Shown: positions 28,891-32,880 of the stretch, one piece after another
Layout of the letters: every line of letters starts with the position of its first letter
Position numbering within the stretch: the first letter of the stretch is position 1
From: an uncultured Desulfuromonadales bacterium
GTDB taxonomy: Bacteria > Desulfobacterota > Desulfuromonadia > Geobacterales > CAIOGM01
Direction: 5' to 3'
Assembly (NCBI GenBank): GCA_903929485.1
Contig: CAIYUY010000099.1
Location: 1-33,334 of the forward strand
Length of the DNA stretch: 33,334 nt
The notes under the pieces: model-generated
What the model was told of the DNA's origin: nothing
Database searches by the model: none
The model's input: only the letters and a program-made list of their open reading frames with translations
Translations under genes and position numbers: made by a program

Positions 28891-29976
28891 TCAGATCTCC
28901 ATGTTCATGACTCTCCGGACCTGGGAGAGTGTCTGCTGCGCCACGTCCCGCGCCGCGACAATCCCCTTTCGGAGAACGTCCCTGATATGCTCGGGATCTT
29001 TTTCCAGTTCCCGACGCCGGGCTCTCAAGGGGCGCAAGTATTCGTTGAGGGATTCGGTAAGCTGCTGCTTCACTCTTCCTGCTCCCTGGTCACCGATCTC
29101 TTCGGCGATCCGGTCCGGCGTCCGATCAGAGCAGAGCGAACAGAGGAGGAGCAGATTGGCGACCTCGGGACGATTGATGGGGTCATAGGTAATGGTTCGC
29201 TCCGAATCGGTCTTGGCCCGCTTGATCAGGTTGGCCGTCTCGTCCTCGGTCGCCCCCAGCATGATGGCGTTGTTCCGGCTCTTGCTCATCTTCTGACCGC
29301 CGTCCAACCCCATGATCAGGGGGGCCGAGCTCAGGAGCGGATGCGGTTCGGGGAAAACCGGCTCATTTCCCGCGAAACGTTCATTGAACCGGCGAGAGAT
29401 GACCCTGGTCAATTCCAGATGGGGAATCTGGTCTTTTCCCACAGGGACCAGGTTAGCCTTACAGAAGAGGATGTCGGCCGCCTGGTGGACCGGGTAGGTA
29501 TACATGCCGGCGTTGATCCGCTGCTGACCGGCGGCCAGGATCTCTTCCTTCACCGTGGGGTTCCGGTCCAGTTCCGCATTGGTCACCAGGGTCAAGAAGG
29601 GAAGCAACAACTGGTTAAGCTCCGGAATGTGGCTATGAGGAAAGATGAAGGTATGGCCGGAATCGGGGTCCAGTCCGGCGGCCAGGTAATCCACCGTCAG
29701 CTGGTGGACATTCTGGGAGATATTCTCGAATGAGTCCCGATCCGTAAGAACCTGATAATCAGCGATGACGATATAGATGGGGACCCCCAGATTCTGCAGG
29801 CGAACCCGATTCTGAAGCGAGCCGAACAGGTGACCGATATGCAACGAACCGGTGGGACGATCGCCGGTAAGGACACGGAATTTTTTTGGGGAAACCAGTA
29901 GCTCCTGCTCCAGGAGGGCGCTGCGCGCCACTGTGGCGTCATAGGTGCCGTATTCGAGTTTTTGTTCATGTTCCAT
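28891..29976 (-). CDS. trpS: Tryptophanyl-tRNA synthetase
   Basis: Encodes 361 residues. A class Ib catalytic domain shows LTGDRPTGSLHIGHLFG with the HIGH motif at 46-49 and the KMSKS motif at 229-233 (GGQKMSKSRNN). In between are ADYQVLTD, NAGMYTYPVHQAADIL and VPVGKDQIPHLELTR, the tRNA and Trp-AMP contact regions. An N-terminal extension of about 30 residues before the usual start is unusual; the ATG at 29974-29976 has GGAAGG upstream, so it appears translated. It is of the shorter bacterial TrpRS subgroup with 'TGDRPTG'. The phosphatase gene follows in the same operon. Confidence 0.96.
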   Translation of the reverse strand: MEHEQKLEYGTYDATVARSALLEQELLVSPKKFRVLTGDRPTGSLHIGHLFGSLQNRVRLQNLGVPIYIVIADYQVLTDRDSFENISQNVHQLTVDYLAAGLDPDSGHTFIFPHSHIPELNQLLLPFLTLVTNAELDRNPTVKEEILAAGQQRINAGMYTYPVHQAADILFCKANLVPVGKDQIPHLELTRVISRRFNERFAGNEPVFPEPHPLLSSAPLIMGLDGGQKMSKSRNNAIMLGATEDETANLIKRAKTDSERTITYDPINRPEVANLLLLCSLCSDRTPDRIAEEIGDQGAGRVKQQLTESLNEYLRPLRARRRELEKDPEHIRDVLRKGIVAARDVAQQTLSQVRRVMNMEI

Positions 29977-30075: not shown

Positions 30076-30104
30076 TTGAATTGCCCGTCATTTTCCGGTA
30101 GTAT
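30076..30104 (+). promoter_or_regulatory. Predicted sigma70 promoter of the molybdopterin-relic/glycosyltransferase gene
   Basis: TTGAAT (30076-30081), a 17-nt spacer and TAGTAT (30099-30104) precede an AAAAGGA ribosome site and the ATG at 30139. Confidence 0.55.
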
Positions 30105-30138
30105 GGCTGCAATGGACAAATCGTAAAAGGAAACAGCC

Positions 30139-30329
30139 ATGCCCCCTTTCATCCATCGCTCCGTCCGCCCCCATGACTGTCCCGACAGCTGCGGCCTGCT
30201 GGTGACCGTGAACGCCGGCAGGGCCGTCCATGTCACCGGCGACGCCGCTCCCAGCGACTCACCAACCAGGGAAACGGGAATACGTTCCACGACAACGGGG
30301 TGGAGCTCCGCCCCGCCGAACCCGCCTGA
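30139..30329 (+). pseudogene. Molybdopterin oxidoreductase relic (N- and C-terminal scraps)
   Basis: From the ATG at 30139 the frame encodes SVRPHDCPDSCGLLVTVNAG and then RAVHVTGD, the N-terminal [4Fe-4S] segment of molybdopterin oxidoreductases (CPxxCPDxCGLL.V..GRAV.V.GD). In the +1 frame, sequence from about 30249 to the TGA at 30327-30329 encodes SQRLTNQGNGNTFHDNGVEL followed by RPAEPA, a typical extreme C-terminus of the same family. Essentially the whole enzyme between these ends is deleted, including the Cys-rich third ligand region and the molybdenum cofactor domains. The promoter and ribosome site remain. Confidence 0.8.
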
Positions 30330-31419
30330 CGTGGAGAGCCGGAAACCGGACTGCTCCCTCGTCGTCCCGCTCCTCAACGAAGCCGAGACGATCCGAAAAT
30401 TTCTCCTCATGCTTGCCCGACAGGAGAGGATCGACTTCCAGGTAATCCTTAGTGACGGCGGCTCCAGGGATGACACTCTCCTCCGGGCAAAGGCTCTCGG
30501 GGAACTTCTCCCCTACGATCTGACCATCATCACCGGCGGCCGCGGCCGTGGGCGACAGATGAACAGCGGCGCGGCCGTTGCCCAGGGCGATTGGCTCCTT
30601 TTTATCCACGCAGACTCGAAATTTTCCGACCCCTTGGCTCTCTACAAGGGACTCTCGGCCGTCAAGGAGAGGGAGGTCGCCAAGGGAGAGGGGCGCACGG
30701 CGGGCCGTTTCGCCATCAGGTTCGACACCGCCGGCGCCTCTTCCGGTTTCGGTTACTCATTCTGTGAAGGGAAAGCCCGACTCAATCGGTCCGGCTGCAT
30801 CCTGGGTGACCAGGGGTTCCTCCTGTCACGAAAACTCCTGGAGAGAGTCGGCTCTTTCGACGAATCACTCACCGTCGCCGAGGATCCGGATTTTGCGGAG
30901 CGACTGCGAGCTCACGGGGAGTTCATCCTTCTCCCTGCTGAAATCCTCAGTTCACCCCGACGATTCGTGATGGAGGGGTATCGCTCCCGGCAGACCCTCA
31001 ACGCCCTCCTCATGGGGCTCCTCTTTTCAGGACACTCCTCCTTTCTGGCCACCCTTCCCGGCAGCTATCAACGACATGACCGGGCCCGACGTCTGAGCCT
31101 GGAACCTATTTTCAGGGAGATCGCCCGGCTCATCTCCACCCTACCCATGAGGAAGCGGCTCCTCTTCTGGTACAAGATCGGCGCCTATGTCCGCGGCAAC
31201 ATCTGGCAGTTGGCCTTTGCCCTGGATCTGTGGCGAACCCGGCGCGGGGGGGTGGAGGGGGCGCTGCTGGCGTTGTATGATAAGTATCTGGACCGGTTAA
31301 CGAACCATCCCCCCGGGAGATTGCTGGTAGCCGGCATCGTTTGGCTCTGGTTTTTTTCGGCGCGGCGCTGGAGATGGCTCAGGGAGGGGAAACGGGAGGA
31401 CGTAAAACGGGCCGGCTGA
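30139..31419 (+). CDS. Family 2 glycosyltransferase (TIGR04283-like) fused downstream of a molybdopterin oxidoreductase relic
   Basis: The open frame is 426 residues, but only residue 65 onward (GTG at 30331) resembles a glycosyltransferase: CSLVVPLLNEAETIRKFL, VILSDGGSRDDT, GRGRGRQMNSGAAVAQGDWLLFIHADS, GDQGFLLSRKLLERVGSFDE and VAEDPDFAERLR. These fit GT-A enzymes of the TIGR04283 type (the GRxRQMNxGA signature). The first 50 or so residues derive from a molybdopterin oxidoreductase start, and the ancestral stop TGA (30327) sits one base before the GTG, the arrangement of two coupled genes. Deletion inside the upstream gene has placed its start in frame with the glycosyltransferase, so either a chimeric or a GTG-initiated protein is made. 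A C-terminal extension of about 120 residues ends in a likely membrane-proximal helix (GRLLVAGIVWLWFFSA). Confidence 0.85.
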   Translation: MPPFIHRSVRPHDCPDSCGLLVTVNAGRAVHVTGDAAPSDSPTRETGIRSTTTGWSSAPPNPPDVESRKPDCSLVVPLLNEAETIRKFLLMLARQERIDFQVILSDGGSRDDTLLRAKALGELLPYDLTIITGGRGRGRQMNSGAAVAQGDWLLFIHADSKFSDPLALYKGLSAVKEREVAKGEGRTAGRFAIRFDTAGASSGFGYSFCEGKARLNRSGCILGDQGFLLSRKLLERVGSFDESLTVAEDPDFAERLRAHGEFILLPAEILSSPRRFVMEGYRSRQTLNALLMGLLFSGHSSFLATLPGSYQRHDRARRLSLEPIFREIARLISTLPMRKRLLFWYKIGAYVRGNIWQLAFALDLWRTRRGGVEGALLALYDKYLDRLTNHPPGRLLVAGIVWLWFFSARRWRWLREGKREDVKRAG

Positions 31420-31482: not shown

Positions 31483-31893
31483 TTACTTCTTGGCGGGTGC
31501 GGCAGCCTTGGTGTCGACGACCTTACTCATCTCCTTGCCGCAGCCGCACTTGCCCGGCTTCTGGCTGATGGTCTGGCAGTCGCACTGGGCGCCGCAGGCG
31601 CAGTTGTACTTGCCGGCGAGGAGGACGGAAGCTTCCTTACCGTCCTGTTTGTAGAAGGCCTTCCCTTTTTCCACTTTGTCCACCGTCACCTTCAGCAGAG
31701 CCTGACCGCAGGAGCATTTCCCCTCTTTTTTGGAGACGGTGTTGCAGCCACACCCGTTGCCGCAGCCGCAGACGTAGATCTCATCGCCTCCCTTCACCTC
31801 CAATTTCCCCCCCTTCAACGGCTCGGAAAACGAAAGCGCGGAAAAACCAAGGCCCAAAACCATGATCATCAAAACTACCAGAAACTTTTTCAT
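31483..31893 (-). CDS. Exported Cys-rich protein with two 6-Cys repeats
   Basis: Encodes 136 residues from the ATG at 31891-31893 (AAGGAG 9 nt upstream); a longer frame adds 20 improbable residues. A clear signal peptide KKFLVVLMIMVLGLGFSALS is cleaved near residue 24. Two homologous motifs follow: CGCGNGCGCNTVSKKEGKC plus SCG, and CACGAQCDCQTISQKPGKC plus GCG, each with six Cys in a CxC-x3-CxC-x8-CxC pattern. They are separated by a Lys-rich beta segment (VTVDKVEKGKAFYKQDGKEASVLLAGKY). The tail is Ala/Lys-rich. Twelve Cys in a small exported protein suggest metal (Cu, Zn) binding or an Fe-S-like role. No haem motif (CxxCH) is present. It is a single-gene unit with its own promoter and terminator. 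Function is unknown. Confidence 0.8.
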   Translation of the reverse strand: MKKFLVVLMIMVLGLGFSALSFSEPLKGGKLEVKGGDEIYVCGCGNGCGCNTVSKKEGKCSCGQALLKVTVDKVEKGKAFYKQDGKEASVLLAGKYNCACGAQCDCQTISQKPGKCGCGKEMSKVVDTKAAAPAKK

Positions 31894-31941
31894 GTGGCTA
31901 ATCTCCTTGTGGTGTGATGCTCGTGGCATCAATTTGGTTGC

Positions 31942-31971
31942 ACTGTAAATCAAACGGGAATTATTTGTCCA
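31942..31971 (-). promoter_or_regulatory. Candidate sigma70 promoter of the Cys-rich protein
   Basis: On the minus strand TGGACA (31966-31971), an 18-nt spacer and TACAGT (31942-31947) lie about 50 bp upstream of the ATG. Confidence 0.4.
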
Positions 31972-32007: not shown

Positions 32008-32880
32008 TCAGACGATGAGCCGAAACAGCTGCTCCACGCAACTTATCCGCATCGGCGAATAACAGTAATAATCACCGTCAATCTGAACCGCTTTCCTGCC
32101 GGTCACCACCAGTTTGGCGGCGCTGAACCGGCGGACATGAGGAGTATCGGGATAGCTGCCCGCCAGGGTACTCAGCGCCAGTTTGAGATAGGACATTCTC
32201 CGGTCATCCTTCACGCAGACAACCTGGAACTCCGGGGCGAAAAGATCGGCGTGAGGGGCCAGGATAACTCCGCCCCCATAAGCGGCGGCGTTACAAATGA
32301 TGACCCCGTGGCAATCGATGCGCATCTCATCCACATAGAGCTCAAGACGCTCCCGTTCCCATGCGGCAAAGCGGCGTAACGCCGCCAACAGATATGCTCC
32401 CTTGCCAAGAAGTCTCAATTCCGGGGAGCGGACACTCTCGCAGATGAAACCGTCCAATCCAATCCCCGCCATGAGAAGAAAAAACTGTTTTTTCCGTTCC
32501 ACCTGGAGCAACCCCACGGCAGGGGAGCGGGTGGCGCCGTTGACGATCCGCGTTAGGGCGTTCTCCAGGGAGCTTATGCCGATCTCCCGGGCCAGCAGAT
32601 TAGCCTTCCCCATGGGGATTACCGCCAGGGTAGCCTTACCGAAAGTAATCCCGTTGATAACGCCGTTGATGGCGCCGTCTCCCCCCCCCACGATGATGAA
32701 AGGGTGCTCCTCGCCGGCGCAGATACGATTGGCGCAGCGGGCCACCTCTCCCGGTTCGGTCACGGCATGAAGCGTCAGCGTGATGCCGGAAGCCGCCAGG
32801 GTACTGACGACCTGATTTACCCGGTGGCGGCTATAGGAACCGGCCAGGGTATTGATGATAAAATGATACTGACGGGGCAC
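32008..32880 (-). CDS. Diacylglycerol/lipid kinase-like protein (YegS/LCB5 family)
   Basis: Encodes 290 residues from a GTG at 32878-32880 with GAGGG upstream. The catalytic domain has the start FIINTLAGSYSRHR (relative of NPxSG), the nucleotide loop VGGGDGAINGVING (GGGDG at 65-69) and VIPMGKANLLAREIG (88-101), where most relatives have PxGTxN; here Thr is replaced by Lys-Ala. The C-terminal beta domain contains ILAPHADLFAPEFQVVCV, corresponding to the P.A...DG.l.v motif, and VQIDGDY near the end. It would phosphorylate a lipid such as diacylglycerol or a sphingoid-like substrate. The changed PMGKAN and APEF (usually DG) positions leave the substrate uncertain. Confidence 0.88.
   Translation of the reverse strand: MPRQYHFIINTLAGSYSRHRVNQVVSTLAASGITLTLHAVTEPGEVARCANRICAGEEHPFIIVGGGDGAINGVINGITFGKATLAVIPMGKANLLAREIGISSLENALTRIVNGATRSPAVGLLQVERKKQFFLLMAGIGLDGFICESVRSPELRLLGKGAYLLAALRRFAAWERERLELYVDEMRIDCHGVIICNAAAYGGGVILAPHADLFAPEFQVVCVKDDRRMSYLKLALSTLAGSYPDTPHVRRFSAAKLVVTGRKAVQIDGDYYCYSPMRISCVEQLFRLIV

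Follow-up and report, generated by a model that had tools for sequence, protein, structure and literature searches.

Gene fusions created by deletion

Gene fusions that are born by deletion have been described in a preprint by Kaul et al. (PMC12803068) for the Escherichia coli long-term experiment, for the Mycobacterium tuberculosis complex and from a wide screen, with yjcO-lysU as an example from the E. coli experiment and acrR-glcD and mlaE-htpX as examples from the M. tuberculosis complex. In the sections of that preprint considered here, the evidence brought forward includes expression of a fusion or its presence in several isolates, and no clear novel beneficial function is reported for the fusions. 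Gallant et al. (2020; PMC7671302) described chimeric protein-coding genes that resulted from multigene deletions in M. tuberculosis isolates, one of which was seen by mass spectrometry.

The case described here belongs to this known kind. It was found in a stretch of 33,334 nucleotides (the window) from an uncultured Desulfuromonadales bacterium, the genome of which is termed G000 in the following. Positions 30139 to 31419 of the plus strand form an open frame of 426 codons with zero internal stops, in which residues 1-35 (MPPFIHRSVRPHDCPDSCGLLVTVNAGRAVHVTGD) look like the N-terminus of a molybdopterin oxidoreductase (MoOR) and a family 2 glycosyltransferase (GT) begins at residue 72; the start of one open reading frame and the end of another make up one new open reading frame. 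Like in the fusions of Kaul et al. (PMC12803068), as far as they are covered here, a deletion has joined the start of one frame to another frame, and an out-of-frame piece, which is possible also there (mlaE-htpX), lies in between, but the downstream enzyme is complete, its constraint looks normal, and the case is known from one fused genome. With the cases of Gallant et al. (PMC7671302), likewise considered in part, it shares the origin of a chimeric protein-coding gene by deletion, whereas other genes in another organism are concerned, only part of a single gene has been deleted and the recipient gene is whole. The locus is thus distinguished by its complete recipient enzyme together with the readability of both remnants. 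It is very likely that the deletion joined the start signals of the MoOR gene to the GT frame and that the fused GT is made from the ATG at 30139.

Both ends of an oxidoreductase at one locus

The preliminary description of this DNA had recognized the two ends of one MoOR in the locus, and this is borne out by searches of the whole G000 genome with the intact MoOR of the congener G003. Residues 2-36 of that protein match 30142-30246 (74% identity, E 3.4e-10) and residues 647-672 match 30246-30323 (65% identity, E 8.9e-4), and each of six different intact MoORs recovers both pieces in the locus. The out-of-frame C-terminal peptide thus aligns with MoORs, which had been set as a test. The N-terminal piece (30139..30243, plus strand) comprises 35 codons in the fused frame with 77% identity to the G003 MoOR. 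It contains a partial Fe4S4 motif, the first cysteine of which is changed to arginine, and Pfam Molybdop_Fe4S4 matches residues 13-36 of the fused protein weakly, under the gathering score, as it does the isolated MoOR segment (E 2.3e-4, below the gathering cut-off). The deletion junction consists of the 5 bp GCCGC (30244..30248, plus strand) in place of 1,836 bp in G003, with an ambiguous exact breakpoint; G003 is too diverged for a breakpoint microhomology to be placed. The C-terminal piece (30249..30329, plus strand) comprises 26 codons and the ancestral TGA (30327-30329), with 69-78% identity to the MoOR C-termini of G003 and G001.

Within the fusion, this C-terminal stretch is read in a frame different from its own. 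The frame that contains 30249 reads SQRLTNQGNGNTFHDNGVELRPAEPA up to the TGA, and the MoOR C-terminus in the window is LTNQGNGNTFHDNGVELRPAEPA, followed by the same stop and, one base later, by a GTG at 30331. The preliminary description was right about the stop, its distance to the GTG and the out-of-frame position, but it had quoted the peptide three residues too short, and its "+1" label depends on the reference: the C-terminal piece is in frame +2 relative to the ATG at 30139, and the GT is in frame +1 relative to the C-terminal piece.

The remnants no longer belong to a functional MoOR. The window holds only the partial Fe4S4 segment, and the Molybdopterin and Molydop_binding domains, both present in the intact G003 protein, are missing; with the G003 MoOR as query, the middle part was found nowhere else in the G000 genome, the next best matches being paralogues at ≤32% identity. 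When 16 intact MoORs were compared at 55 remnant positions, 30 positions were invariant, and the window departs from the invariant residue at five of them, each intact MoOR in a leave-one-out comparison (n=16) at zero to one. The five changes are C10R (the first Fe-S cysteine) and Y12H in the N-terminal piece and D to N, S to N and Y to H in the C-terminal piece, Y12H being the weakest, as more distant MoORs often have histidine there. Read in the MoOR frame, the remnants give a dN/dS of 0.42 against G003, compared with 0.18 over the same stretch for the intact pair of G003 and G001, both values being rough for so short a stretch. The deletion of the MoOR middle at this locus is real, and the remnants have mutated since.

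The intact arrangement in relatives

G003 has a full MoOR of 673 residues between the same flanks as in the window, in the order trpS, MoOR, GT and lipid kinase. In the window, the flanks are a divergent trpS (28891..29976, minus strand), which as a left flank is conserved in G003, G002 and G001, and a YegS/BmrU-type lipid kinase (32008..32880, minus strand) on the right, which is near the GT also in these three congeners. Between GT and lipid kinase, there is a small cysteine-rich open reading frame (31483-31953, minus strand), which starts with a hydrophobic stretch and contains a pair of similar repeats of CxC type (CGCGNGCGCNTV...CSCGQ and CACGAQCDCQTI...CGCGK), for which all metallothionein matches were insignificant, and short inverted stretches with the look of a dispersed repeat (CTTCGACAAGCTCAGGGCGAACGG / CCGTTCGTGGTGAGCCTGTCGAACC) lie at the contig end (33200-33334).

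In G003, the stop of the MoOR and the start of the GT overlap (ATGCCTGA). A MoOR match at E 1e-120 was obtained in 101 and a GT match at E 1e-40 in 109 of the 141 genomes of the order that were searched. When the two match lists were compared by eye, about 38 genomes had the GT downstream of the MoOR in the same orientation, at a distance of up to about 1.3 kb. The existence of relatives with both full genes adjacent had been set as a further test, and they are found: apart from the overlap in G003, the genes are directly adjacent, within about 60 bp, in G074, G015, G007 and G027, making five genomes in which they touch or nearly do so. At two loci with a wider spacing (L160 and L161, of G060 and G051), the gene between MoOR and GT resembles, judged from its sequence, a CheV-type chemotaxis protein, and a gap of this size (about 0.8-1.3 kb) separates MoOR and GT in many other relatives.

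Relatives thus keep the two parental genes separate. The fused open reading frame of G000 gave the sole match covering query residues 1-426 among the 141 genomes searched, and a scan of named genomes, from which records very near the window were possibly excluded, returned mostly N-termini of unrelated oxidoreductases and no fusion. With the long MoOR in 101 of the 141 genomes, the short form in G000 only, and mutated remnants, the deletion is the derived change, and not an insertion or the splitting of a gene.

Origin of the fused frame

In the ancestor, trpS would have been divergent from a unit of two genes, in which the stop of a full-length MoOR overlapped the start of a TIGR04283-like GT. 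About 1,831 bp net, the size being taken from G003 (1,836 bp against the five bases GCCGC), would then have been deleted, and with them the MoOR from about residue 36 to residue 647. Since 1,831 cannot be divided evenly by three, the frame changed. Just before the GT, there is a short segment free of stops in the GT frame, and as the right breakpoint would lie within it, the MoOR start codon and the GT are now in one frame. Ribosomes most likely start at the ATG at 30139, and the product would be the GT, presumably still active, with about 64 extra disordered residues at the N-terminus, 35 from the MoOR start and about 28 from the MoOR tail, which is now read in another frame. The start codon that the congener G003 has for its GT is absent, and the MoOR remnants have mutated after the deletion. 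At the position of the G003 start, the codon alignment has CCG-CCT-GAC in G000 against ATG-CCT-GAC in G003 (CCG at 30322..30324, plus strand); the G003 start thus corresponds to this CCG and not to the GTG at 30331, where the preliminary description had the glycosyltransferase homology begin.

The same description had the deletion of the middle, the frame change and the joining of the MoOR start to the GT frame correct, but it regarded the capture of the promoter as new, whereas the GT follows directly behind the MoOR, and overlaps with it, also where both genes are intact. Given this overlap in G003, with both genes on one strand, the MoOR promoter probably served the GT before the deletion, as the second gene of a coupled pair, and it was thus translation initiation that would have changed, not transcription. 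A candidate sigma-70 promoter inherited from the MoOR gene, TTGAAT-17-TAGTAT, is at 30076..30104 (plus strand). It is proposed solely from its conservation, with identical hexamers and spacing in G000 and G002 and TTGAAT-17-TATGAT in G003, as the candidate lies under the threshold of 9/12 of a consensus scan, at which no promoter was found. In G002 the motif was located by its pattern, since inserted DNA had misplaced the block in a global alignment of the upstream regions. For translation, a Shine-Dalgarno sequence AAAGGAA (30126..30132, plus strand) precedes the ATG at 30139 by 6 nt, with an anti-SD duplex of -5.6 kcal/mol compared with -8.1 at the MoOR of G003; this energy is at about the 25th percentile of random sites and hence moderate, not exceptional. 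The fusion as the main product is the economical reading of these sequence features.

State of the glycosyltransferase

The GT is complete (30352..31416, plus strand; TIGR04283, E 6.4e-51). It shares the family 2 domain with the TIGR04283 family (NCBIfam), but it carries a foreign N-terminal tail and, at 173.1 bits, does not reach the curated cut-off of 182 bits, which is passed by the GTs of G003 (189 bits), G002 (184.6 bits) and G001 (192.7 bits). By its sequence, it is an orthologue of TIGR04283 members that is itself just under the cut-off. In the AlphaFold model, most of the GT domain has a pLDDT above 80, and a Foldseek search with the model of the fusion returned family 2 glycosyltransferases (E 1e-12 to 1e-9). 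Residues 1-58 and 60-64 have a pLDDT below 50, so that the region of residues 1-64 ahead of the GT is predicted to be disordered; a functional role of this tail was considered and found to be unsupported. A literature search on arsenosugar genes gave nothing useful for the GT.

The pairwise dN/dS values of the G000 GT against its congeners are 0.30, 0.31 and 0.30, within the range of all pairs (0.24-0.31), but as they mostly reflect the time before the deletion, they are weak evidence on selection since then. At columns otherwise invariant among 22 sequences, the G000 GT differs at four of 49, tied for the most, and all four changes are conservative.

The GT evolves faster in G000 and G002, which lack the MoOR, than in G003, which has it, although this is a lead only, as several rate tests were run and the p values are uncorrected. 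With a consensus outgroup, private changes number 20 in G000 against 4 in G003 (p 0.0015) and 19 in G002 against 5 in G003 (p 0.007), and with G001 as outgroup the counts are 44 to 29 for G000 against G003 (p 0.10) and 47 to 26 in the G002 comparison (p 0.02). Three neighbouring control genes differ not significantly: trpS and a PP2C-like gene have no such difference, and the lipid kinase has 24 to 13 for G000 against G003 (p 0.10). Some relaxation of the G000 GT is possible. That the new tail or the shift in initiation usefully changed the GT, and that MoOR and GT act in one process, by which the independent MoOR losses in G000 and G002 would repeatedly alter selection on the GT, is unlikely.

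Repeated loss of the oxidoreductase in the genus

Also G002 has no MoOR at this locus, and there the GT has retained its own ATG. The interval between trpS and GT keeps the promoter motif and, near the GT, a YRSVYPYD stretch like the MoOR start; G002 lost the MoOR separately from G000. At this locus (L103, about 2330-2520), inserted DNA separates the promoter motif from the trpS side, and the reverse strand of this insert resembles part of an Hpt domain (VFRSAHVIKGGAVTFGF). In G001, the MoOR is beside trpS on one contig (C32, locus L117), where a radical SAM gene of TIGR04167 follows downstream (C32:7703-8605), and the GT is on another contig (C159, locus L104), next to a gene that by eye resembles a tyrosine recombinase. 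With the MoOR gone in G002 and apart from the GT in G001, it has been repeatedly lost or separated from the GT in this genus. MoOR remnants ahead of the GT were also looked for in another 12 genomes of the order, the majority of which lack a strong MoOR match. None were found, the only weak match being at L171 (E 0.009), in a search that misses short remnants, as the 8-residue remnant of G002 itself falls below its threshold.

Alternative explanations

The deletion may be real and the GT nevertheless translated from the internal GTG at 30331..30333 (plus strand), the fused N-terminus then being absent or made in traces. No other start codon lies near the former boundary between the genes, the predicted disorder ends close by, and the start signals are weak likewise at the GTs of G001, G002 and G003. 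The GTG has no Shine-Dalgarno sequence, though (anti-SD duplex 0), and a strong local fold of -19.8 kcal/mol compared with -8.2 at 30139. Ribosomes from the ATG at 30139 run in the GT frame and therefore do not terminate at the old MoOR TGA, which closes a reinitiation there to them, and translational coupling, in the part of the literature considered (PMC10666635), requires overlaps or very short gaps. An internal start is thus rather unlikely, and translation from the ATG at 30139 is preferred. It is quite improbable that the GT itself is a decaying pseudogene with an incidental fused frame, as the slight excess of changes in G000 and the loss of the MoOR might suggest, because its 362 codons have no stops or frameshifts, its dN/dS of 0.30 is as in the congeners, and 45 columns invariant across 22 orthologues are kept.

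A misassembly or binning artefact that joined the ends of an intact MoOR might be suspected in a draft genome of 369 contigs, but such a joining would not create changes at otherwise invariant sites, as are found in both remnants; also, the MoOR middle is nowhere in an assembly that is 99% complete, and G002 lacks the MoOR at the same place. An artefact is therefore very improbable and was rejected. The chance that the two peptides resemble a MoOR by accident is practically negligible: the fragments are short, and the C-terminal one reaches only E 8.9e-4 genome-wide, but they are both ends of one protein, on one strand, in the correct order, 5 bp apart and in synteny with the intact gene, by which this explanation is refuted.

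Significance

Deletions have recently been described as a route to new proteins, and the locus clearly exemplifies this route in nature. It is unusually well resolved, as the two MoOR ends can still be read together with the former stop and the former boundary between the genes, a congener has the intact arrangement, and the recipient enzyme is complete. The loss of one gene in one genus has had two outcomes, a fusion in G000 and a retained GT start in G002, and the case bears on how deletions, which are usually viewed as losses, may extend or re-start neighbouring proteins.
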